This document shows positions 27,126 through 39,408 of a stretch of DNA of 64,000 nucleotides, piece after piece (positions within the stretch are counted from its first letter, which is position 1; each line of letters begins with the position of its first letter). The notes under the pieces are model-generated. The model was not told where the DNA came from. It worked only from the letters and a program-made list of their open reading frames with translations, and searched no databases. The stretch comes from Rhodoferax sp. WC2427 (lineage in GTDB: Bacteria > Pseudomonadota > Gammaproteobacteria > Burkholderiales > Burkholderiaceae_C): positions 2,294,001 to 2,358,000 of the forward strand of contig NZ_CP162006.1 in assembly GCF_040822085.1 (NCBI RefSeq). Direction: 5' to 3'. A program made the position numbers and the translations under genes.

Positions 27126-28472
27126 TTATGGGCGAAGGTGGGCCAGCACCTGGTCCACCATCACGCCCGCCTGGCCCAGGTAGTTGGCGGGGTCGCAGAA
27201 GGCATCCAGCTGGGCACGGCTCACATGGGCGTTGATTTCGGGGTGGGCGGCCAGAATCTCGACCAGCGGGCGTTGTTGTTTCAAGGCTTCGCGGCACAGC
27301 TCATACACCAGGTCGTGGGCGTATTCGCGGCCAATGAAGGGGCCCAGGCCCATCATCACGGCCTCGGACATCACCAGGCCGTGGGTCATGTCGATGTTGC
27401 GGCGCATCTGCACCGTGTCTACCTCCAGCCCGGCCAGCACAAACTTGGTCTGTTTGAGCGCACCCGACATGAGGCAGAAGATTTCGGGCAGCGACACCCA
27501 TTCGATCTCCCACGGGCCGGTGGAGCGCTCGTGGTCGGCCACCATCGCGTCCATCAGCGCGGCGGCATGCTGGCGCGCCACCGAAATGTTGGCGTGGATG
27601 TACAGGCAGGAGATGGGGTTGCGCTTTTGCGGCATGGTGCTGGACGAGCCGCGGCCCGGGGCGTAGGGCTCAAACACCTCGGCCACCTCGGTTTGCATCA
27701 TCAGCTTCACGTCCATGGCGATCTTGCCCAGCGAGCCGCCGACCAGGGCCAGAAAGGCCCCCACTTCGGCGATGGTGTCGCGCACCGTGTGCCAGGCGAT
27801 GGGCGGGCAGGCCAGGCCCAGCTCGGCCATCAGCCCGGCTTGGGTCTCCATGGCGCCTTTTTCCAGCGAGGCCAGCGTGCCCGCCGCGCCGCCGAACTCG
27901 CCCATGAAGACCCGTGGTTTGAGCTGCTCCAGCCGCTCGCGGTGGCGCTCGATACCGGCCAGGATGCTGGCGGTTTTGAAGCCGAAGGTGATGGGAATCG
28001 CCTGCTGCAGGTTGCTGCGGCCAATGATGGGCGTGTCGCGGTATTTGCGGCTCAGGTCGGCCAGCGAGTCGGAAATGGCCTTCAGGTCCGCCTCCACCAG
28101 CGCCAGGCCTTCGCGCATTTGCAGCACGGTGGCGGTGTCGGTGATGTCCTGGGTGGTCGCGCCCCAGTGGCAGTACTCGCCCAGCTTGTCGCGGCAGTTG
28201 GCGTTGATCTGGTTAACCACGGCGATGATGGGGTAGCCGATCTGCTCGGTCTTGGCCTTGAGTTGCGCCCAGTCGATCATGTCGAGGCGGCAGTTTTGGA
28301 CGATCTCGTCCGCCGCCTCCTGCGGAATGATGCCGAGCTGGCCCTGCACCTTGGCCAGGGCGCGTTCAATGTCCAGGTACTTGGCGGTGCGGTTCTCGTC
28401 GGACCAGACGGCGCGCATTTTTGCGTCGCTGAAGATGTCGCCAAAGATGCGCGAGTCGATGATGGATGCCAT
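27126..28472 (-). CDS. Adenylosuccinate lyase/fumarase superfamily protein (PcaB-like)
   Basis: The 448-aa enzyme has the superfamily signature GRGSSSTMPQKRNP (about 280-293) that supplies the catalytic serine loop, plus YCHWGATTQDITDT and GRSNLQQAIPITFGFK. These best resemble 3-carboxy-cis,cis-muconate cycloisomerase-type and uncharacterised lyases. No protocatechuate genes accompany it, so the true substrate is probably another di- or tricarboxylate. ATG 28472 has an AGGAGA site; the frame's further upstream extension runs into the CitE-like gene. It is the fourth gene of the operon starting at 31345. Confidence 0.85.
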   Translation of the reverse strand: MASIIDSRIFGDIFSDAKMRAVWSDENRTAKYLDIERALAKVQGQLGIIPQEAADEIVQNCRLDMIDWAQLKAKTEQIGYPIIAVVNQINANCRDKLGEYCHWGATTQDITDTATVLQMREGLALVEADLKAISDSLADLSRKYRDTPIIGRSNLQQAIPITFGFKTASILAGIERHRERLEQLKPRVFMGEFGGAAGTLASLEKGAMETQAGLMAELGLACPPIAWHTVRDTIAEVGAFLALVGGSLGKIAMDVKLMMQTEVAEVFEPYAPGRGSSSTMPQKRNPISCLYIHANISVARQHAAALMDAMVADHERSTGPWEIEWVSLPEIFCLMSGALKQTKFVLAGLEVDTVQMRRNIDMTHGLVMSEAVMMGLGPFIGREYAHDLVYELCREALKQQRPLVEILAAHPEINAHVSRAQLDAFCDPANYLGQAGVMVDQVLAHLRP

Positions 28473-28491
28473 GGGGTTATCTCCTTGAGGA

Positions 28492-29298
28492 TCAAGTGGG
28501 GGATGTGAGGGAAGTGGTTGCCAGCAGGCGCTGGGCTTTGAGCAGTACAGGCCGGTCGACCATTTGCCCGTCCAGTTGCAGCGCGCCCGTGGGATTGCCG
28601 CTGTAGGCGGCTTGAACGCGGGCGGCCCAGGCCAGGTCGGCGGCGCTGGGGGCCAGGGCGGCGCGCACGGCGGCCACCTGGCTGGGGTGGATGCACAGCT
28701 TGGCTTTGAGCCCCAGACGTTGGGCATGGGCCATGTCTGCCGCTACTACAGCGGCATCCAATGCAACAGTGACTCCAGCCACCGGGGCGGGCAGGTCTGC
28801 GGCGCGGCTGGCCAGGGCGAGGTGCACCGCCGCCATGTCCAGCGCCGGGCTGTCGTTGGGCAGGTCCAGATCCAGCGCGTAGTCGATGCTGCCGAAAGCC
28901 AGCCGGGCTACGCCGGGCGCGGCTGCAATCGCCTGCGCCGCCAACAAGCCGCGTGCGCTTTCAATCAGCGCCAGCACCGTGCCGTGGTGGACGGCTTTCA
29001 GGTCCGCGATCTGCGCAGCCGACTCGGCCTTGGCCAGCATCACGCAGGGCAGGGCGCAGGCTTTTAGCAACTCCAAATCGTCTGCATAAAACGCGCTGTG
29101 GGCATCGTTGATGCGTAGCAGTACCCGCGTGGTGTCTGCCGTGGCATGCCATTCGGCAAAGGCGCGGCGGGCCTGGGGCTTGTCGGCTGGCAGCACGGCA
29201 TCTTCCAGGTCCACAATGATGCGGTCGGCCCCACTGGCCAGCGCCTTGGCAAAGCGCTCGGGGCGGTTGCCGGGTACGAACAAATAGGTTTGTTCCAT
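28492..29298 (-). CDS. CitE-like (HpcH/HpaI) CoA-ester lyase, probable citramalyl-CoA lyase
   Basis: The 268-aa protein is a TIM-barrel CitE-like lyase: LFVPGNRPERFAKALASGAD at the start, IIVDLEDAV with the metal-site acidic residues, LLRINDAHSAFYADDL, ALIESARGLL, and LAFGSIDYALDL. These enzymes split malyl- or citramalyl-CoA thioesters. It lies four bases after the CoA-transferase gene. With the hydratase and CoA-transferase the best fit is (S)-citramalyl-CoA cleavage to acetyl-CoA and pyruvate; this is inferred from context. Confidence 0.87.
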   Translation of the reverse strand: MEQTYLFVPGNRPERFAKALASGADRIIVDLEDAVLPADKPQARRAFAEWHATADTTRVLLRINDAHSAFYADDLELLKACALPCVMLAKAESAAQIADLKAVHHGTVLALIESARGLLAAQAIAAAPGVARLAFGSIDYALDLDLPNDSPALDMAAVHLALASRAADLPAPVAGVTVALDAAVVAADMAHAQRLGLKAKLCIHPSQVAAVRAALAPSAADLAWAARVQAAYSGNPTGALQLDGQMVDRPVLLKAQRLLATTSLTSPT

Positions 29299-29301
29299 GG
29301 C

Positions 29302-30483
29302 TTACACCGTGCCTGCATTGCGCAGCGCGGCGACCTGCTCGGCGCTGTAGCCTTGGCCTGCCAAAATCGCCGCCGTGTGCTGGCCTAGCGCGGGCACGGC
29401 ATCCATGCGCGGCGCAGCGGTGTGCCAGGAGCCCGGCGGCAGCAGGGCCGGGACGCGGCCCTGGGGCGTGTCCACCTCTGTCCAGCGATTGCGGGCTTTC
29501 AGCTGCGGATGCGACCACACCTCGGCCATGCTGTTGACCTGGGCGTTGGCGATGCTGGCCTGTTCCAGCCGCTCCACCACCTGGGCGGCGGTCAGGGTGG
29601 AAAAGGCCTGCACGATGAGGGCGGAGAGCTCGGCGCGGGCGGCGCTGCGTTTGGAATTGCTGGTGAAACGCTCGTCCGTAGCCAGGCCGGCCTGCAGCAG
29701 CACCTGCTCGCAAAAGCCCTTCCATTCGCGCTCGTTTTGCAGGCCCAGCATCACGGTTTTGCCGTCACCCGCCGGGAATGGGCCGTAGGGGTAGATGGTG
29801 GCGTGGCTAGCCCCCGAGCGGGGTGGCGGCGCGGCACCGTCGAACGCGTAGTACAGCGGGTAACCCATCCATTCGGTCAGCGATTCGAGCATGGACACGT
29901 CGATGTGCTGGCCCTGGCCGGTCTGCTGGCGCTGCATCAGCGCGGCCAGGATATTGGTGTAGGCATACATGCCCGCCGAGATGTCGGCAATCGACGGACC
30001 GGCTTTGGAGGGCGTATCCGGCGTGCCGGTCACCGACACAAACCCGGCCTCGCTCTGGATCAGCAGGTCGTAGGCCTTCTTGTCGCGGTAGGGGCCGTCC
30101 GCGCCGTAGCCGGAGATGTCGCAGACGATGATGTTGGGCCGTACTTTGCGCAGAGCATCAAACGACAAACCCAGTCGCGCCGCCGCGCCGGGGGCCAGGT
30201 TTTGCACCACCACGTCGGCTTCTTCGGTGATCAGGCGCAGCAGGATTTTTTGTGCTTCGGGGTCTTTTACATCGAGCGTCAGGCTCTCCTTGGAGCGGTT
30301 GGTCCAGACGAAGTGCGAGGCCAGGCCGCGCACCCGCTCGTCGTAGCCACGGGCAAAGTCGCCCACGCCGGGGCGTTCGATCTTGATGACGCGGGCGCCC
30401 AGGTCGGCCAGTTGCCGGGTGGCAAAGGGCGCGGCGATGGCGTGCTCCAGGGTGACGACGGTGATGCCTTTGAGGGGTTGCAT
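29302..30483 (-). CDS. CaiB/BaiF (class III) CoA-transferase
   Basis: The 393-aa protein opens MQPLKGITVVTLEHAIAAPF and has LADLGARVIKIERPGVGDFA, ITEEADVVVQNLAPGAAARLG and ISGYGADGPYRDKKAYDLLI, the last supplying the catalytic Asp of the family. The ATG is preceded by TTGGAG overlapping the upstream gene's end. In mesaconyl-CoA pathways a class III transferase moves CoA between the C1 and C4 carboxylates, or activates the free acid; either is possible here. Its position between the hydratase and the lyase supports a joint pathway. Confidence 0.88.
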   Translation of the reverse strand: MQPLKGITVVTLEHAIAAPFATRQLADLGARVIKIERPGVGDFARGYDERVRGLASHFVWTNRSKESLTLDVKDPEAQKILLRLITEEADVVVQNLAPGAAARLGLSFDALRKVRPNIIVCDISGYGADGPYRDKKAYDLLIQSEAGFVSVTGTPDTPSKAGPSIADISAGMYAYTNILAALMQRQQTGQGQHIDVSMLESLTEWMGYPLYYAFDGAAPPPRSGASHATIYPYGPFPAGDGKTVMLGLQNEREWKGFCEQVLLQAGLATDERFTSNSKRSAARAELSALIVQAFSTLTAAQVVERLEQASIANAQVNSMAEVWSHPQLKARNRWTEVDTPQGRVPALLPPGSWHTAAPRMDAVPALGQHTAAILAGQGYSAEQVAALRNAGTV

Positions 30484-30490
30484 GCTCTGT

Positions 30491-31345
30491 TTACTCCAAG
30501 ATGGCGGTGGCATCCATGGTGAGAAAACCTTCGTGGTCACGCCCCCACAGATGGATAGTTTTTCCGTCGGCCGACGGCTCGCCGTGGACCGAGAACGGGT
30601 GGATGTCGAAGGTGGGCCGCACCGCCTTGAAAGCGAACTGCCGTACCCGTACTTCGGGCAGCTGGCGGCGCAGCAGGTCCATCAGCAGGGTGGCAATCAG
30701 CGGGCCGTGCACGATCAGGCCGGGGTAGCCTTCGACCGTGGTGACGTACTGGCGGTCGTAGTGGATGCGGTGGCCGTTGAAGGTCAGGGCCGAGTAGCGG
30801 AACAGCAGCACGTCGTCGGGCACGATGGCGCGGCTCCAGGCGGCGGTGGCCGGAGCCAATGCGGGGGGCGGGGCTATGTCGTCCGGCGAGGCGGCTGCGC
30901 GGTAGACGATGTTGTGGTGCTCGGTCAAGGCGACCTCGTGGCTGCCGTTGCGGCGCACTTCGTGGCGCACCTTGACGAAGACCAGGCTGCCGGTGCGCCC
31001 GGTTTTCTCCTGCACGTCGGCAATGGTGGAGGTGCGCTCCAGCGTGTCGCCCACCAGGAGCGGCTGGTGGAACACAAAGTCGCTGCCCGCCCACATGCGC
31101 CGGGGCAGCGGCACCGGGGGCATGAAGCCGCCGCGCTTGGCGTGGCCGTCGGCGCCGATGTCCGACTGGCGGTGCAGCGGCAAAAAGTACAGCCAATGCC
31201 ACAGGCTGGGCAGGGGTGTGCCGGGCGCGGGCCGGTCGGCGGGCCAGTCCAATGTGGCCGACAGGGCGGCATACGGTGTGGGGGTGGCGGTGTCGGCCAC
31301 CGTCTCGCTGCGGCCTATCCAGTCGGCTAATGTGTGTGTCTCCAT
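30491..31345 (-). CDS. MaoC/HTD2-like hydratase, probable mesaconyl-C4-CoA hydratase
   Basis: The 284-aa protein is of the FAS1-type double-hotdog dehydratase group (HTD2-like): LPSLWHWLYFLPLHRQSDIG, then RRMWAGSDFVFHQPLLVGDT, and the C-terminal RYSALTFNGHRIHYDRQYVT, carrying the hotdog hydratase Asn/His pair. Proteins of this type include mesaconyl-C4-CoA hydratase of the 3-hydroxypropionate bicycle. It is the first gene of the operon and is divergent from the LysR gene, with 81 bp between. Substrate is inferred from the neighbouring CoA-transferase and CitE-like lyase. Confidence 0.85.
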   Translation of the reverse strand: METHTLADWIGRSETVADTATPTPYAALSATLDWPADRPAPGTPLPSLWHWLYFLPLHRQSDIGADGHAKRGGFMPPVPLPRRMWAGSDFVFHQPLLVGDTLERTSTIADVQEKTGRTGSLVFVKVRHEVRRNGSHEVALTEHHNIVYRAAASPDDIAPPPALAPATAAWSRAIVPDDVLLFRYSALTFNGHRIHYDRQYVTTVEGYPGLIVHGPLIATLLMDLLRRQLPEVRVRQFAFKAVRPTFDIHPFSVHGEPSADGKTIHLWGRDHEGFLTMDATAILE

Positions 31346-31404: not shown

Positions 31405-31434
31405 CAACTTTTAATACCATTGCTGCATGGCACG
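31405..31434. promoter_or_regulatory. Putative LysR-regulator site in the divergent promoter
   Basis: The stretch gtgcaacttttaataccatt followed by gctgca, in the 81-bp gap between the hydratase and lysR, resembles ttgcacttttttaatctatt followed by ggtgca at 35455-35480 upstream of tctC. The shared GCA-CTTTT-TAAT-ATTG-TGCA pattern suggests one regulator acts at both promoters. Confidence 0.45.
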
Positions 31435-32344
31435 CATCAATTTCGACTTACAGCAACTGCAGGCCTTTGTGGCCGTGGCCGAGCGCGGCAGCTTCCGCGC
31501 GGCGGCCGACCAGATCCACCTGTCGCCCCCGGCGCTGAGCCGCCGCATCGACAAACTGGAAACCATCCTGGGCCACCGCCTGTTTAACCGCACCACCCGC
31601 GAGGTGGAGCTGACCAGCCTGGGCCGCGTCTTTCTGGAGCGCGCCCGCTCGGCGCTGGACGACCTGGAGTCGGCCCTGCTGGGAATTACCGACCTGGCCC
31701 CCAGCCGGGGCGGGCGGGTCACGGTGGCCTGTGTGCCGTCGGCGGCGCTGTACTTTTTGCCGGTGGCGCTGCGCAGCTTTCTGGAGCAGTACCCGGCCAT
31801 CCGCATCCGCGTGGTGGACGAGAGCGTGAACCAGATGCTGTCGAGCGTGATTTCGGGCGAGGCCGACTTTGGCATCGGCTTCATGAGCACCCAGGTGCCC
31901 GAGGTGGCGTTTGAGCCCATCCACGACGACCCGTTTGTGCTGGCCATGCCGCGCCGCCACGCGCTGGCCGAGCGCAAGACCATCCGCTGGGCCGAGCTGG
32001 GGGATGAGCGGCTGATTTCGGTGGCCCGCAGCAGCGGCAACCGCCAGCTGCAGGACGACGCGCTGGCCAAGGCCGGGGTGAACCCCAGCTTTGCGTTTGA
32101 AGTGAGCCATGTCGCCACCTTGCTGGGCATGGTCGAAGCCGGCCTGGGCCTGGCCGCAGTGCCCCGCATGGCCCTGCCGCGCCAGCACGCCACCCTGGTC
32201 GGCGTGGCCCTGCGCGACCCGCCCATCGTGCGCAAGCTGGGGCTATTGACCCGGCATGGGGCCAGCCTGCGGCCTGCGGCAGAGGCGTTTCACCAACACC
32301 TGCGGGAGGCGCTGAAAAGCCCGAAGCCGTTGGATGTGCTATAA
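31427..32344 (+). CDS. LysR-family transcriptional regulator
   Basis: The 305-aa protein has an N-terminal winged HTH (LQQLQAFVAVAERGSFRAAA, then ALSRRIDKLETILGHRLFNR) and a periplasmic-binding-like effector domain (GGRVTVACVPSAALYFLPVA onward). Divergent transcription from the hydratase-led operon and proximity to the PrpF-TctC gene make it the likely activator of organic-acid catabolism in this locus, with a pathway acid or CoA-free intermediate as effector. The stop codon overlaps the beginning of a dispersed element. Confidence 0.93.
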   Translation: MARINFDLQQLQAFVAVAERGSFRAAADQIHLSPPALSRRIDKLETILGHRLFNRTTREVELTSLGRVFLERARSALDDLESALLGITDLAPSRGGRVTVACVPSAALYFLPVALRSFLEQYPAIRIRVVDESVNQMLSSVISGEADFGIGFMSTQVPEVAFEPIHDDPFVLAMPRRHALAERKTIRWAELGDERLISVARSSGNRQLQDDALAKAGVNPSFAFEVSHVATLLGMVEAGLGLAAVPRMALPRQHATLVGVALRDPPIVRKLGLLTRHGASLRPAAEAFHQHLREALKSPKPLDVL

Positions 32345-32412: not shown

Positions 32413-34425
32413 TCAAACCTCTTCCACCGCTTGCCCTACCGGCATCTGCGCCCGCTGGGCCACCTCGCGCCATTTTGCGATTTCGCTGCGGACCAGCTGT
32501 TGTAGCTGGTCCGGGGTGCTGGTTTGCACGCGGGCACCGTCGGCGGCCATGCGGGCGACCAGCTCGGGGTCTTGCAGCACCGTGTTCAGGGCGGTGTTCA
32601 GCTCGGCCACCACCGCGGGCGGCGTGCCTGCCGGGGCAAACAGGGCGTACCACTGCGTCAGCTCCACGCCCGGCACGCCTTGCTCGGCCAGGGTGGGCAC
32701 GTCGGGCAGGCCGGGCAGGCGCTCGGGTCCGGCCACGGCCAGGGCGCGCAGCTTGCCGCTGTGCAGGTAGGGTTGGGCGGTGAACAGGCTGGGGAACATC
32801 AGCTGGGTGCTGCCGCGCACCGTGTCGGCTATGGCCGGGGCGGCGCCAGGGTAGGTGTGGCCGCGCAGCGCGGCGCCTGCGTTCTGGTTGAACAGCTCGG
32901 CGGCGAAGTGCGGGGCGGTGCCGGTGCCTGCACTGGCGTAGGTAAACGGATGGCTGCGGGCCTGGGCGATCAGATCCGGCACGTCGCGTACCGGCAGCTC
33001 GGCATTCACCACCAGCAGGGTGGGCGAGTAGCCGATCAGCCCTACCGGGCAGAAGCCGCCCAGCGGGTCGTAACGCAGGCCTTCCAGCGCCGGGTGGATG
33101 CCGTGGGTGGCGATGTAGCCAAACAGCAGGGTCTGGCCATTGGGCGCGGCCGAGGCCACGTACTCGCAGGCCACGCTGCCGTGGGCGCCAGCGCGGTTGT
33201 CGATGTGCACGCTCTGGCCCAGCAAGGGCGAGAGTTTGCGCGCCAGGGCCCGGGCGATGGTGTCGTTGCCGCCGCCCGCGCTGGTAGGCACGATGATGCG
33301 GATGCTGGTGTCGGGCGCGGCCTGGGGTGCCAGGGCGGTGGTGTCTTGTGGGAACACATAGCTGGGCAGTTGCAACTGGCCCTGCAAGATCTTGCGGGCG
33401 GTGCGTACCAGGGCGGCGCGTTCCACCTGGGCAGATTCGCCCACGCCGACCACTTCCACCTCGATGTCGATCTGCCCCGCCGGGTGCAGCACCACCAGTG
33501 GGCGCTTGCCCGACGGTGTTCTTGCTCCGCTGGCTACGGTGCCGGGCAGGGCGAAGGCGGTGGCCACGCCAATCGCGCCGGTGACGGCGTGCGAGGCATG
33601 GCAGCGGCGCGGCGTGAAATAGCGCGAGGTGATGCTGTTGGCATCGTCCCCGGCGCTGACTAGCACCGGCTTGGGCACCACGCTGTCGGACACATCGCCC
33701 AGGCCCATGCGCGTGCCTGCCACCCGGCGCATGGCCTCGATGCGCTCCAGCAGGGCGGTGTTGGCATCCAGCTGGGCCGGGCGCTCGCGGCCCGTCAGGC
33801 CCAGGTCGGCGGCGCGCAGGACCATCAGCGGCATGGCAGCATCGATACAGGTGACCTCGATACCGTCGATGGTGTCGATGCGCTGGCCGGTGGGGAACAA
33901 ATGGCCGGTGACCGCGCCCCAGGCATCCAGAAAGTTCAGCAGAATGGGCGCTGCCGTACCCGCCACACCGTCGATGCGGGCATCGCCCTCGTAGGTGACC
34001 ACGCCCCCGGGGGTGCAGACGGTCACGTCGATGCAGGCACCGGTGTTGACGTTGTAGACGCGGGCGGTGGTGTGGCCGTCTTGGGCGGCGATCAAGCCCT
34101 GCTCGATGGCGAACGGCACCACGCCCGCCAGCATGTTGCCGCAGTTGGGCCGGGTGTCCACCGACTGGTGGCCTACGCCCACCTGGGCGAACAGATAGTC
34201 CACATCGCAGCCCGGCTGCTGCGAGCGCGAGACGATGGCCACCTTGCTGTTGAGCGTGCTGCCGCCGCCCAGGCCGTCGAGCTGCAGCGGGTCGGACGCG
34301 CCGATGGCCCCGATCAGCGCCTGGTCGCGCGCCTCGGTGCCCTCGGGCAGCCATTCGCGCAGAAAGAACGGGCCGCGCGAGGTGCCAGAGCGCATCAGCA
34401 CGCAGGGTATGTTGAGGTTGACCAT
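32413..34425 (-). CDS. Fusion of PrpF-family isomerase and TctC-type receptor domain
   Basis: The 670-aa protein joins two complete families. Residues 1-358 match PrpF/4-oxalomesaconate tautomerase proteins: MRSGTSRGPFF, GGGSTLNSKVAIV (K61), RPNCGNMLAGV (C95) and ALVRTARKILQGQLQLPS at the normal end. After a linker (about 359-371) residues 372-662 match a tripartite-tricarboxylate receptor (IRIIVPTSAGGGNDTIARAL, APHFAAELF, QLMFPSLFTA, QWYALFAPAGTP). The receptor part is very similar to the separate TctC encoded four bases upstream, but has no signal peptide, so it should stay in the cytosol. No frameshift or stop is seen at the junction. The receptor domain may bind or deliver the tricarboxylate substrate; this is inference. 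Confidence 0.9.
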   Translation of the reverse strand: MVNLNIPCVLMRSGTSRGPFFLREWLPEGTEARDQALIGAIGASDPLQLDGLGGGSTLNSKVAIVSRSQQPGCDVDYLFAQVGVGHQSVDTRPNCGNMLAGVVPFAIEQGLIAAQDGHTTARVYNVNTGACIDVTVCTPGGVVTYEGDARIDGVAGTAAPILLNFLDAWGAVTGHLFPTGQRIDTIDGIEVTCIDAAMPLMVLRAADLGLTGRERPAQLDANTALLERIEAMRRVAGTRMGLGDVSDSVVPKPVLVSAGDDANSITSRYFTPRRCHASHAVTGAIGVATAFALPGTVASGARTPSGKRPLVVLHPAGQIDIEVEVVGVGESAQVERAALVRTARKILQGQLQLPSYVFPQDTTALAPQAAPDTSIRIIVPTSAGGGNDTIARALARKLSPLLGQSVHIDNRAGAHGSVACEYVASAAPNGQTLLFGYIATHGIHPALEGLRYDPLGGFCPVGLIGYSPTLLVVNAELPVRDVPDLIAQARSHPFTYASAGTGTAPHFAAELFNQNAGAALRGHTYPGAAPAIADTVRGSTQLMFPSLFTAQPYLHSGKLRALAVAGPERLPGLPDVPTLAEQGVPGVELTQWYALFAPAGTPPAVVAELNTALNTVLQDPELVARMAADGARVQTSTPDQLQQLVRSEIAKWREVAQRAQMPVGQAVEEV

Positions 34426-34429
34426 GGGA

Positions 34430-35380
34430 TCAGTCGGCTTGTAGTTTGGCTTGCTGGACCACGCGCTTCCAGCGGGCCAGGTCGGACTTCACCAGCTCGG
34501 CCAGTTGCTCGGGTGTGCTGGCTTCCACGTCGGCCCCGTGGCCTTCGATGCGGGCGATGGTTTCCTTGTCGGCCAGCACCTGGTTCAGGGCGGCGTTGAG
34601 TTTGGCGATCACGTCCTTGGGGGTTTTGGCGGGCGCGAAGAGGGCATACCACTGGTCGACCTCCACGCCTTCGATGCCCAGTTCCTTGAGCGTGGGTACG
34701 TTGGGCAGCAGGGGCGAGCGCTTGGCTCCGGCAATCGCCAGGGCCTTGAGTTTGTCGGCCTTGACGTAGGGCAGCGCGGTGAACAGGCTGGGGAACATCA
34801 GCTGGGTTTGCCCGCCAATGGTGTCGGTGATGGCGGGGGCTGCGCCTTTGTAGGGCACGTGCAGCGGGTTGGTCTGGGTGGCCAGCTTGAAGAGCTCGGC
34901 GGCAAAGTGCGGAGCCGTGCCGTTGCCTGCAGAGGCGATGCTGAACTTGTCGGGCGTGGCCTTCATCAGGGCCACAAGCTCCTTCACGTCCTTGGCCTTG
35001 ACGCTGGGGTTCATGACCATCAGTGTGGGGGAGTAGCCCACGCGGCCCACCGGCTCGAAGCTGGTGATCGGGTCGTAGCGCAGCTTTTGCAGCGCCGGGT
35101 TCATGGCGTGGGTGGCCACGTAGCCAAACATGAGGGTGTTGCCATCGGGCGCGGCGCGGGCCACCAGCTCGGCGGCAATGGCCCCGTTGGCCCCGGCCTT
35201 GTTGTCGATGATGACGGTCTGGTTCAGCACCAAGGCCAGCTTTTGCCCGATGGTGCGGGCCATGGCATCGTTGCCGCCACCGGCAGCGGTGGGCACCACG
35301 ATGGTCAGCGGTTTGTCGTTGGCGGCGAAGGCCAGGCTGCTGCTGGCCAGCAGTGCGACGGCGGTGAGGGTTTTGAACAA
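34430..35380 (-). CDS. Tripartite tricarboxylate transporter receptor (TctC/Bug family)
   Basis: The 316-aa periplasmic binding protein has a signal peptide (MFKTLTAVALLASSSLAFAA), then the Bug-family PLTIVVPTAAGGGNDAMART motif, GYVATHAMNPALQKLRYDP, APHFAAELFKLA and QLMFPSLFTALPY. It starts at TTG 35380 with a strong AGGAGA site; no ATG gives as good a signal peptide. No TctA or TctB is in the window; such orphan receptors are abundant in Comamonadaceae. It is the closest relative in the window of the receptor half of the following fusion gene, so tandem duplication is likely. Confidence 0.93.
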   Translation of the reverse strand: MFKTLTAVALLASSSLAFAANDKPLTIVVPTAAGGGNDAMARTIGQKLALVLNQTVIIDNKAGANGAIAAELVARAAPDGNTLMFGYVATHAMNPALQKLRYDPITSFEPVGRVGYSPTLMVMNPSVKAKDVKELVALMKATPDKFSIASAGNGTAPHFAAELFKLATQTNPLHVPYKGAAPAITDTIGGQTQLMFPSLFTALPYVKADKLKALAIAGAKRSPLLPNVPTLKELGIEGVEVDQWYALFAPAKTPKDVIAKLNAALNQVLADKETIARIEGHGADVEASTPEQLAELVKSDLARWKRVVQQAKLQAD

Positions 35381-37132: not shown

Positions 37133-37852
37133 TCAGGGTTTGACGGTGTAGGGCAGCAAACGGGCCTGCGATGCCGTCAGCAAATCCGTCATGGCCTTGG
37201 CGGCGGCATCGGGTTCGCGTGCCAGGATGTGGCGGTGCACGGCGGCGTGCAGGTCCAGGTCTTCGCTGGGGCGGGTGGCATGGCGCAGCAGGGTTTCGGA
37301 CGACACCCGCAGCGCGGCCTTGATGCCGTTGCCAATGGTGATGAACATGCCGTTGCGCGACACCTCGATGATGGTCATGTGGAAGGCCAGGTCGGCCTCG
37401 GCGGCGGCGCGCACTTCGTTGGTGGTGTAGGCGGCCGCCAGCTCGTGGTAGCGGCGGTCCAGCAGCTGCATGTCGGCGGCGTTGCCCGCCCGGGCGGCCA
37501 GAAAGCAGGCGCGCGGCTCGAAGCACAGGCGCATCTCAAAAATATCTTCGATGATCTTGCTGTCGAACTGGGCGTGCAGCCGCCAGGCCAGGACGTCGCG
37601 GTCCAGCAGGTTCCAGTCGGAAAACGGCAGCACCCGCGTGCCGATTTTGGGCGACACGTCGATCAGCCGCTTGCTCGAGAGCTGCTTGATGGCTTCGCGC
37701 ACGGTGGTGCGGCTGACCCCGTAGGCGCTGCACAGGTCGCTTTCCACCGGCAGCGCGTCGCCGGGCAGAAATTCACCGCCCACGACGCGCATGCCGATGA
37801 TTTTGGCCACCTGGGCGGTCATGGTGCCGACCAGCGGTTCACGTTCAAACAT
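37133..37852 (-). CDS. GntR-family (FadR/FCD) transcriptional regulator
   Basis: The 239-aa protein has an N-terminal winged HTH (GEFLPGDALPVESDLCSAYG then VSRTTVREAIKQLSSKRLI) and a C-terminal all-helical FCD ligand domain (EMRLCFEPRACFLAAR... AEADLAFHMTIIE... DLDLHAAVHRHIL) with metal/ligand His residues. It is the last gene of the arabinoside operon, 35 bp after abfA, and is the likely sugar-responsive repressor of the operon promoter near 43.7 kb. Confidence 0.92.
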   Translation of the reverse strand: MFEREPLVGTMTAQVAKIIGMRVVGGEFLPGDALPVESDLCSAYGVSRTTVREAIKQLSSKRLIDVSPKIGTRVLPFSDWNLLDRDVLAWRLHAQFDSKIIEDIFEMRLCFEPRACFLAARAGNAADMQLLDRRYHELAAAYTTNEVRAAAEADLAFHMTIIEVSRNGMFITIGNGIKAALRVSSETLLRHATRPSEDLDLHAAVHRHILAREPDAAAKAMTDLLTASQARLLPYTVKP

Positions 37853-37887: not shown

Positions 37888-39408
37888 TTATTTACGGCCC
37901 AGCGCGGTCGTCACGATCACGTTCCACGATCCGGGCTTCAACTCGGCCACGATGGTCTCGCCGTCTACCTGCACGTGGGGGTTATTTTCGGGCACAACGG
38001 TGTTGGGCGCGTCTTTGGTGTTGGTGGCCTTCATATTGCTGTGGTGCAGGGCCAGCGCGTGGTCCAGCGTGCGGGTGGTGCCCAGGCCGCGCAGTTCGAT
38101 GCGCAGCTGCATGCTTTCGGTGAGGTGGCGGTTCAGCGCAAACACGGTGGTGGTGCCGGTGGCTTCGTCGTCCACCACGCAGGCGCACAGGTAGGGGATT
38201 TCCGGGTGGCTTTTGGCCTCGTAGCTGGGCGAGTCGATCACCGGGCGCAGCACCTTGCCGTGGGCAAAGCGGGTGGCCTGGGCGAAAGGGTAGAAGATGG
38301 TTTGGCGCCAGGCCGGGCCGCCGGGCTCGGTCATGATGGGGCCGATCACATTCACCAGTTGCGCCAGGCAGGCCACCTTGACGCGGTCGGCGTTGTTCAT
38401 CATCACGATGAGCGCGCCGCCCACCACCAGGGCATCTTCGGTGTTGTAGATTTCTTCCAGCAGGCGGGGCGCTTGCGGCCAGCCGGGCTGGCGCAGGTCG
38501 TTGATGGAGCGGGCCTTGTACCAGACGTTCCACTCGTCAAACGACAGCATGATGCGCTTGGCCGAGTGCTTGCGCGCCGCCACGCCATCGGCCACGGCGA
38601 CGATTTCCTTGATCGACTGGTCCATCTGCTCGATGCAGCCGAAAAACTCGGGCGTGGAGTCGCCGCGGTTTTCAAAATAGGTGTGCAGCGAGATGAAGTC
38701 CACGTCGTCAAAGCAGTGCTCCAGCACCGTGTCTTCCCACTGGCCGTAGGTGGGCATGTTGTGCGCCGACGAGCCGCAGGCGGCGAGTTGGATGGTCGGG
38801 TCCACCAGGCGCATGAGCTTGGCGGTCTCGTGGGCGATGCGGCCGTATTCTTCGGCGGTTTTGGAGCAAATTTGCCAGGGGCCGTCCATCTCGTTGCCCA
38901 GACACCAGAACTTGATGTCGTGCGGGGCGGCCACGCCATGCGACTTGCGCAGCTCGGACAGGGCGGTGCCGCCGGGGTGGTTGCAGTATTCGAGAAACTC
39001 GCGGGCCTCATTGGGGCCGCGCGTGCCCAGGTTCACGGCCCACATGGGTTCGATGTCGGTGGCGGCGCACCATTCCATGAATTCGTTGGTGCCAAACTGG
39101 TTGGTCTCGGTGGAGGCCCAGGCCAGGTCCAGGCGCACCGGGCGGTCAGCGGCAGGGCCGACACCGTCTTCCCAGTTGTAGCCGGAGACAAAGTTGCCGC
39201 CGGGGTAGCGCACGATGGTGGGGCCGAGCTCGCGGGTCAGCTCCATCACGTCGCCGCGAAAGCCGCGCTCGTCGGCCGTGGGGTGGCCGGGTTCGTAGAT
39301 GCCGGTGTAGACCGCGCGGCCCAGGTGTTCGACAAAGCTGCCGAAGATGCGCCGGTCCAGCTCAGACACGGCGAAGTCGCGGTCTACGACCAGGCGGGTG
39401 GAGATCAT
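37888..39408 (-). CDS. abfA: Alpha-L-arabinofuranosidase, GH51
   Basis: The 506-aa glycosidase releases terminal L-arabinofuranose from arabinan, arabinoxylan or arabino-oligosaccharides. GH51 features are visible: FGSFVEHLGRAVYTGIYEP at the start, IVRYPGGNFVSGYNWEDGVG, the acid/base Glu in WCLGNEMDG (about 173) and the nucleophile Glu in LSFDEWNVWY (about 293). A C-terminal beta-sandwich ends the protein. No signal peptide is present, so it acts on imported oligosaccharides in the cytosol, which fits the adjacent ABC importer. Confidence 0.96.
   Translation of the reverse strand: MISTRLVVDRDFAVSELDRRIFGSFVEHLGRAVYTGIYEPGHPTADERGFRGDVMELTRELGPTIVRYPGGNFVSGYNWEDGVGPAADRPVRLDLAWASTETNQFGTNEFMEWCAATDIEPMWAVNLGTRGPNEAREFLEYCNHPGGTALSELRKSHGVAAPHDIKFWCLGNEMDGPWQICSKTAEEYGRIAHETAKLMRLVDPTIQLAACGSSAHNMPTYGQWEDTVLEHCFDDVDFISLHTYFENRGDSTPEFFGCIEQMDQSIKEIVAVADGVAARKHSAKRIMLSFDEWNVWYKARSINDLRQPGWPQAPRLLEEIYNTEDALVVGGALIVMMNNADRVKVACLAQLVNVIGPIMTEPGGPAWRQTIFYPFAQATRFAHGKVLRPVIDSPSYEAKSHPEIPYLCACVVDDEATGTTTVFALNRHLTESMQLRIELRGLGTTRTLDHALALHHSNMKATNTKDAPNTVVPENNPHVQVDGETIVAELKPGSWNVIVTTALGRK

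Follow-up and report, generated by a model that had tools for sequence, protein, structure and literature searches.

The window, i.e., the whole stretch of 64,000 nt that was analysed, contains on its minus strand an open reading frame (32413..34425) that begins with ATG, runs through 670 codons without an internal stop and combines a PrpF-type isomerase with a TctC-type receptor. With Pfam, PrpF was found at residues 5-354 (E 2.3e-106) and TctC at residues 390-658 (E 2.8e-55), both near full length, which bears out the first-pass annotation of a natural in-frame fusion of two near-complete domains. The PrpF half (33352..34425, minus strand, residues 1-358) is connected to the TctC half, a Bug-type receptor domain (32440..33300, minus strand, residues 376-662), by a flexible, hydrophilic linker (33301..33351, minus strand, about residues 359-375) that contains neither a ribosome-binding site nor a hydrophobic segment. 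Signal peptides and the class labels used below were assigned by hydropathy, with a limit of 1.5 for the best 13-residue mean. On the Kyte-Doolittle scale, this mean is 0.76 for the linker versus 1.92 ahead of the neighbouring separate TctC, in agreement with the earlier remark that the receptor half lacks a signal peptide. The neighbouring TctC gene (34430..35380, minus strand), which encodes a hydrophobic N-terminal signal-like segment, lies directly upstream, as had also been noted, with its stop codon 4 nt before the fusion start. The AlphaFold2 model of the fusion, computed with alignment A3, reached a mean pLDDT of 83.7, with both halves mostly confident and values below 50 at residues 49-58, 84-86, 359-370 (the linker), 442-448 and 665-670; the pTM is 0.57, and the model can be read for each half rather than for their mutual placement.

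An assembly or sequencing error that joined two genes, an objection anticipated in the first-pass annotation, can be regarded as practically out of the question, because the full-length fusion is present in many genomes at 65-96% identity, including two plasmid records; no evidence in favour of such an error was found. Among the genomes of 60 relatives, seven, the own genome included, contain the full-length fusion as a single match (G000; G007, 96% identity; G002, 92%; G003, 89%; G004, 69%; G018, 70%; G040, 65%). In the family sample, the fusion occurs in at least 46 of 399 genomes, a lower bound since genomes with weaker matches were only partly read frame by frame; 30 of these are single full-length matches and 16 were recognised by frame reading, 15 of them complete and one interrupted by a contig end. 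The order sample contributed four of 399 genomes with a full-length match at E 1e-85, namely the own genome and three from other families; a search for this domain order had been suggested in the first-pass annotation. In four genomes of this sample whose frames were read (G454, G540, G631, G660), PrpF and TctC are unfused. At a cut-off of E 1e-100, the 369 genomes sampled from the class yielded a full-length match in the own genome alone, and nine others match the PrpF half. These genome sets overlap in species, and their counts are not additive.

Three states can be distinguished among the relatives: separate PrpF and TctC genes, a class B fusion, and a class A fusion, to which the gene of the window belongs. 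Class B linkers include a signal-peptide-like stretch; class A linkers are short and hydrophilic. In the loci read first, class A linkers comprise 31-43 residues with a hydropathy of at most 1.3 and class B linkers 54-67 residues with 1.61-2.48; in the named set described below, the ranges are up to 53 residues and at most 1.36 for class A, and 53-91 residues and 1.68-2.58 for class B. The linker of locus L237 scores 1.65 when the averaging segment is placed differently, yet it is short and no signal peptide is visible. In class B, the ribosome-binding site, the start codon and the signal peptide of TctC are still present, in frame, inside the linker. All 40 distinct class B genes contain GGAGAC followed by a spacer of 6 nt (38 genes) or 3 nt (two genes) and an ATG (36) or GTG (four), and a GGAGAC-type element with a start was found in the linkers of none of the 48 class A genes. 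A looser ribosome-binding pattern matched one class A row (L175) and missed the class B row L177, which has a spacer of 3 nt. The glycine codon of the class B site is GGA in all 39 near-full-length genes, as opposed to at most 15% GGA at 49 other conserved glycine columns and 4.6% GGA among 2650 glycine codons, which we interpret as selection on the nucleotides of the ribosome-binding site.

Many loci with separate genes also have a GGAGAC-type element ahead of TctC. In one of them (L109), the PrpF stop codon overlaps such an element in another frame, so that the genes may have become one through a frame slip close to the PrpF end. A remnant of class B is seen at L108 (G346), where PrpF is followed by the ribosome-binding site, the start codon and the beginning of the signal peptide, and then by a stop codon; on visual inspection, a MaoC-like gene seems to lie soon after this stop, and TctC was not found in the 7.4-kb contig. 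With their in-frame internal start, the single open reading frames of class B resemble the phage endolysin genes that yield two polypeptides, as outlined in the accessible part of PMC9430671. Unlike these endolysins as outlined there, the short class B product would carry a signal peptide and thus reach another compartment, and the class A gene of the window differs from such genes in having no internal start.

The named loci are the best 80 of 575 by the PrpF half, not a random selection, and comprise 36 class A, 16 class B and 28 unfused loci from genera that include Rhodoferax, Hydrogenophaga, Variovorax, Limnohabitans, Ramlibacter, Massilia, Rhizobacter, Ideonella and Rubrivivax. Among 225 matching plasmid records, three cover at least 80% of the query, and class A fusions are located on plasmids of Cupriavidus oxalaticus and Variovorax sp. 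SRS16. On the C. oxalaticus plasmid (L236; 1.19 Mb, typed as mobilizable), the fusion lies together with TctC, MaoC, CaiB and PurB-like genes, which suggests lateral spread of the cluster. An independent fusion on a Rhizobium rhizoryzae plasmid, indicated by one long tblastn match, was rejected, as a stop codon parts the two genes. At this site (L234, 5970-8097), PrpF and a distant TctC stand in the same frame with the stop between them, forming a parallel alphaproteobacterial pair.

The gene of the window is part of a larger neighbourhood that recurs at other loci. It includes a LysR-type regulator (31427..32344, plus strand) and, on the minus strand, four recurrent neighbours of the fusions: a MaoC-type hydratase with a FAS1-dehydratase region (30491..31345), a family III CoA-transferase (CaiB; 29302..30480), an HpcH/CitE-type lyase (28492..29298) and a lyase resembling adenylosuccinate lyase and carboxymuconate cycloisomerase (PurB; 27126..28514). 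In the named loci, inspected up to about 9 kb on either side with some contigs being shorter, the FAS1-dehydratase/MaoC-type gene accompanies 37 of 52 fusions (22 of 36 in class A, 15 of 16 in class B) as opposed to none of 28 unfused PrpF genes, so that the fusion goes with a wider cluster, largely in one clade. The CoA-transferase, CitE-type and PurB-type genes mostly accompany the MaoC-type gene in this set, and the LysR regulator is usual in all three states; the locus of Variovorax sp. SRS16 has DctA in addition. Taken together, the families of the neighbours would fit a CoA-dependent breakdown of an unsaturated di- or tricarboxylate. An alpha-L-arabinofuranosidase-like gene (37888-39408, minus strand) beside a GntR/FCD regulator (37133-37852) adjoins this acid-degradation cluster and apparently lies outside it.

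The PrpF half passes the NCBIfam model NF033377 for 4-oxalomesaconate tautomerase (489.2 bits, cut-off 440) and stays below the cut-off of the prpF equivalog TIGR02334 (197.6 bits versus 440.55). It resembles the 4-oxalomesaconate tautomerase/PrpF family (LigU-type 6p3h, YbhH 6otv, PrpF 2pvz) and aligns along YbhH and the oxalomesaconate isomerase of the PDB with the lysine and cysteine motifs kept. Residues K61 and C95, which are the same in all 12 fusions of alignment A1, occupy the positions of the catalytic Lys and Cys of the PrpF family and align to the same motifs in 6otv and 6p3j. In Shewanella PrpF, the catalytic pair is K73/C107 according to the accessible part of PMC5690661, to which K61/C95 were matched by motif and equal spacing rather than by an alignment with that protein. 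The solved PrpF relatives are chains of 350-399 residues, whereas the fusion has an extra C-terminal receptor domain, and unlike those relatives it is adjoined by CoA-transferase, hydratase and lyase genes. By score and motif, the PrpF half is a candidate 4-oxalomesaconate tautomerase, and the neighbours point to a CoA-dependent pathway.

The TctC half matches PF03401 with 188 bits (cut-off 27) over profile positions 1-271 of 274, and its relatives in the PDB, with E-values down to 3.8e-50, include the terephthalate-binding protein 8hk9, BugD 2f5x and Bug27 2qpq besides further TctC-type entries. The near-full profile and the so-called pincer loop are shared with the TctC/Bug receptors of the tripartite tricarboxylate transporters, from which the fused half differs in having no signal peptide and in its position behind a presumably cytosolic enzyme. 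The family test of an N-terminal signal peptide and periplasmic location was negative for the fused half on linker hydropathy. The pincer pattern of the family, P-F-x-A-G-G-x-x-D, is present as PTSAGGGND (33262..33288, minus strand, residues 380-388), whose second residue is T instead of F. According to the accessible part of a review (PMC5812351), the carboxylate of the ligand is contacted by two waters bound in this loop. Residues P380, T381, G384, G385, G386, N387 and D388 show no variation across A3, an alignment of 41 fusions (31 class A, 10 class B); in four fusions outside A3 (L007, L201, L099, L104), G386 is replaced by Ala. Furthermore, a set of 49 exported and 16 class B copies defines 83 conserved domain columns, and 66 of these are retained by at least 90% of 37 class A copies. 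Judged by these comparisons, the fused half is a TctC fold, which does not imply the role of a transport receptor; the own genome has two TctA matches, both outside the window. Since no signal peptide is recognisable, the fused TctC half of class A should be cytosolic, and because the ligand-binding loop is kept, the first-pass idea of a binding or allosteric module appears plausible.

Phylogenetic trees, built by quick searches and with SH-aLRT as the only measure of support, were used to approach the order of events. The PrpF tree (81 rows) was rooted on five Alcaligenaceae rows that form no single side of any branch; in it, all fusions and five unfused rows form a set of 58 (support 94), with the separate-gene rows outside. 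In the TctC tree (106 rows), the fused domains of both classes fall into one 60-row set (98), which also takes in four TctCs from unfused loci and three exported copies from class A, and all 37 class A domains lie on one side of one branch with a support of 63. The concatenated tree (61 rows) supports the fusion set (97). In it, the main class A clade has two class B rows at its base (82, 89), and the class A row of Pelomonas KK5 stands next to a class B row (98). In both the PrpF and the concatenated tree, most separate-gene rows are outside the fusions and class B is basal to or beside class A, and a single clade of all 34 class A rows was rejected (AU p 0.012). Accordingly, the signal appears to have come to lie between the halves at first and to have been deleted afterwards, probably at least twice; the TctC tree alone, contrary to this, may allow a single loss. 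The first-pass notion that the enzyme simply replaced the export signal is not supported by this evidence, since class B keeps the signal peptide between the halves and the trees point to a later loss. Inside class B, there are apparent reversals, with separate genes again at L196 and L188/L192. Inside class A, two loci of the Limnohabitans type (L190, L193) have PrpF alone behind an exported TctC, the fused TctC apparently having been lost, and the fused half is thus dispensable there.

The separate TctC of the window shares 57% identity with the fused half. Their kinship is looser than the first-pass description as a close paralogue implies; the two are not each other's closest kin in the TctC tree, where the fused copy groups with other fused TctCs and the separate copy with exported TctCs of other loci, from both unfused and class A loci. 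When a close exported TctC was defined by at least 265 bits and only loci flanked by 4 kb or more of known sequence on each side were considered, one was found near 22 of 32 class A and none of 29 class B loci (Fisher p 3e-9, kinship ignored), the class A loci concerned being mostly one clade. In 12 of the 16 class A loci measured, with start codons set by script, 1-5 nt separate the stop codon of the upstream TctC from the fusion start, and the exported TctC is probably translationally coupled to the class A fusion. A general need of class A for an exported paralogue was rejected, as 10 of the 32 class A loci have no close one nearby, and neither does G146, taken to be the Pelomonas KK5 strain that forms the separate class A case in the trees (L202); the association with the paralogue rests largely on one clade. 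TctC receptors are strongly multiplied in these bacteria, and the number of TctC matches per genome ranges from 3 to at least 90 in 14 genomes. It is low in G002, G151 and G146, which have class A fusions, with 3, 4 and 4 TctC matches genome-wide and 1, 2 and 3 TctA matches, respectively; of the three candidates scored per genome, the fusion is the only one to reach E 1e-60 for TctC. This favours a function of the fused half other than transport and argues against the paralogue as a precondition.

The account that we consider rather probable, based on the comparison of sequences, is a fusion in three steps, which in class A would have resulted in a cytosolic isomerase with a putative carboxylate-binding module. 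In the first state, which is seen in relatives, PrpF and an exported TctC are adjacent in this order, the latter with its own ribosome-binding site and signal peptide. In the second, seen as class B, a single open reading frame contains the ribosome-binding site, start and signal peptide of TctC; a frame slip at the PrpF stop would have joined the genes, with exported TctC still being made from the internal start. In the third, seen as class A, neither the ribosome-binding site nor the start codon nor the signal is present any more and a short flexible linker remains, so that TctC should stay cytosolic and joined to PrpF. The order of these states follows from the trees as the likely one. In most class A loci, the nearby exported TctC could perform the transport. 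The substrate of the isomerase half would be an unsaturated di- or tricarboxylate from the pathway of the neighbouring CoA-transferase, hydratase and lyase genes; the TctC half, not being exported, would bind a carboxylate of this pathway and either tune the isomerase or keep the substrate close.

Alternatively, the TctC half could be an evolutionary leftover that only folds and stays soluble, with no role in ligand binding and an isomerase that works just as well in its absence. We consider this unlikely, but it accounts for several observations besides the loss of the fused domain in L190/L193. For the 21 loci that also have an exported TctC, 200 of 210 pairs show a lower similarity of the fused than of the exported protein. 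The fused TctC thus evolves faster, and relaxed constraint may explain part of the pattern. Its dN/dS, calculated according to Nei-Gojobori for eight genome pairs, is 0.02-0.31, compared with 0.056-0.114 for the PrpF half and 0.059-0.143 for the exported neighbour, which is present in five of the pairs; in seven of the eight pairs, it is 1.3-5.3 times that of the PrpF half. Judged by these ratios, the unexported TctC half is nevertheless under purifying selection, usually weaker than that on its neighbours, and in the pair G308/G368 its value of 0.02 is below those of both other genes and the lowest of all. The invariant pincer loop in A3, the retained domain columns of class A and the persistence of the domain in G002, G151 and G146 with their few TctC matches likewise speak against a mere leftover.

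It is also conceivable, though in our view rather improbable, that the fusion exists to coordinate the output of two proteins. Class B would then yield PrpF and exported TctC from one open reading frame, through initiation at the internal start or through cleavage behind the internal signal peptide, and class A would be a by-product. The ribosome-binding site and start in each of the 40 class B genes, the selection on the glycine codon of this site and the lack of a close exported TctC near the class B loci agree with this. Such a purpose, however, leaves unexplained why class A keeps TctC after the loss of the signal, and many class A loci have a separate TctC directly upstream.

TctC-family receptors are known as periplasmic proteins, and a conserved TctC lineage kept in the cytosol on an enzyme would put this fold to a new use. 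Pursuing the three-step account further, we tentatively propose that a transport receptor became a cytosolic ligand-sensing domain of a metabolic enzyme via a nested gene, a stage at which a single open reading frame with two ribosome-binding sites provided both a cytosolic enzyme and a periplasmic receptor. If this is true, class A fusions would be ligand-gated isomerases and class B fusions single genes that serve two compartments. The living series of separate genes, nested gene and chimera makes a fusion path with a change of compartment directly testable. Among the matches listed from the literature searched, which covers few subscription journals, no description of a PrpF-TctC fusion was found, in line with the first-pass remark that no description of such a use had been seen, and no paper was found there on a periplasmic aconitate isomerase, considered as a precedent. 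The 2025-bp fusion on plasmid 3 of Variovorax sp. SRS16 (L237, 6908-8932; WP_162571173.1) is annotated only as ‘4-oxalomesaconate tautomerase’, a product name with which the receptor half is easily overlooked.
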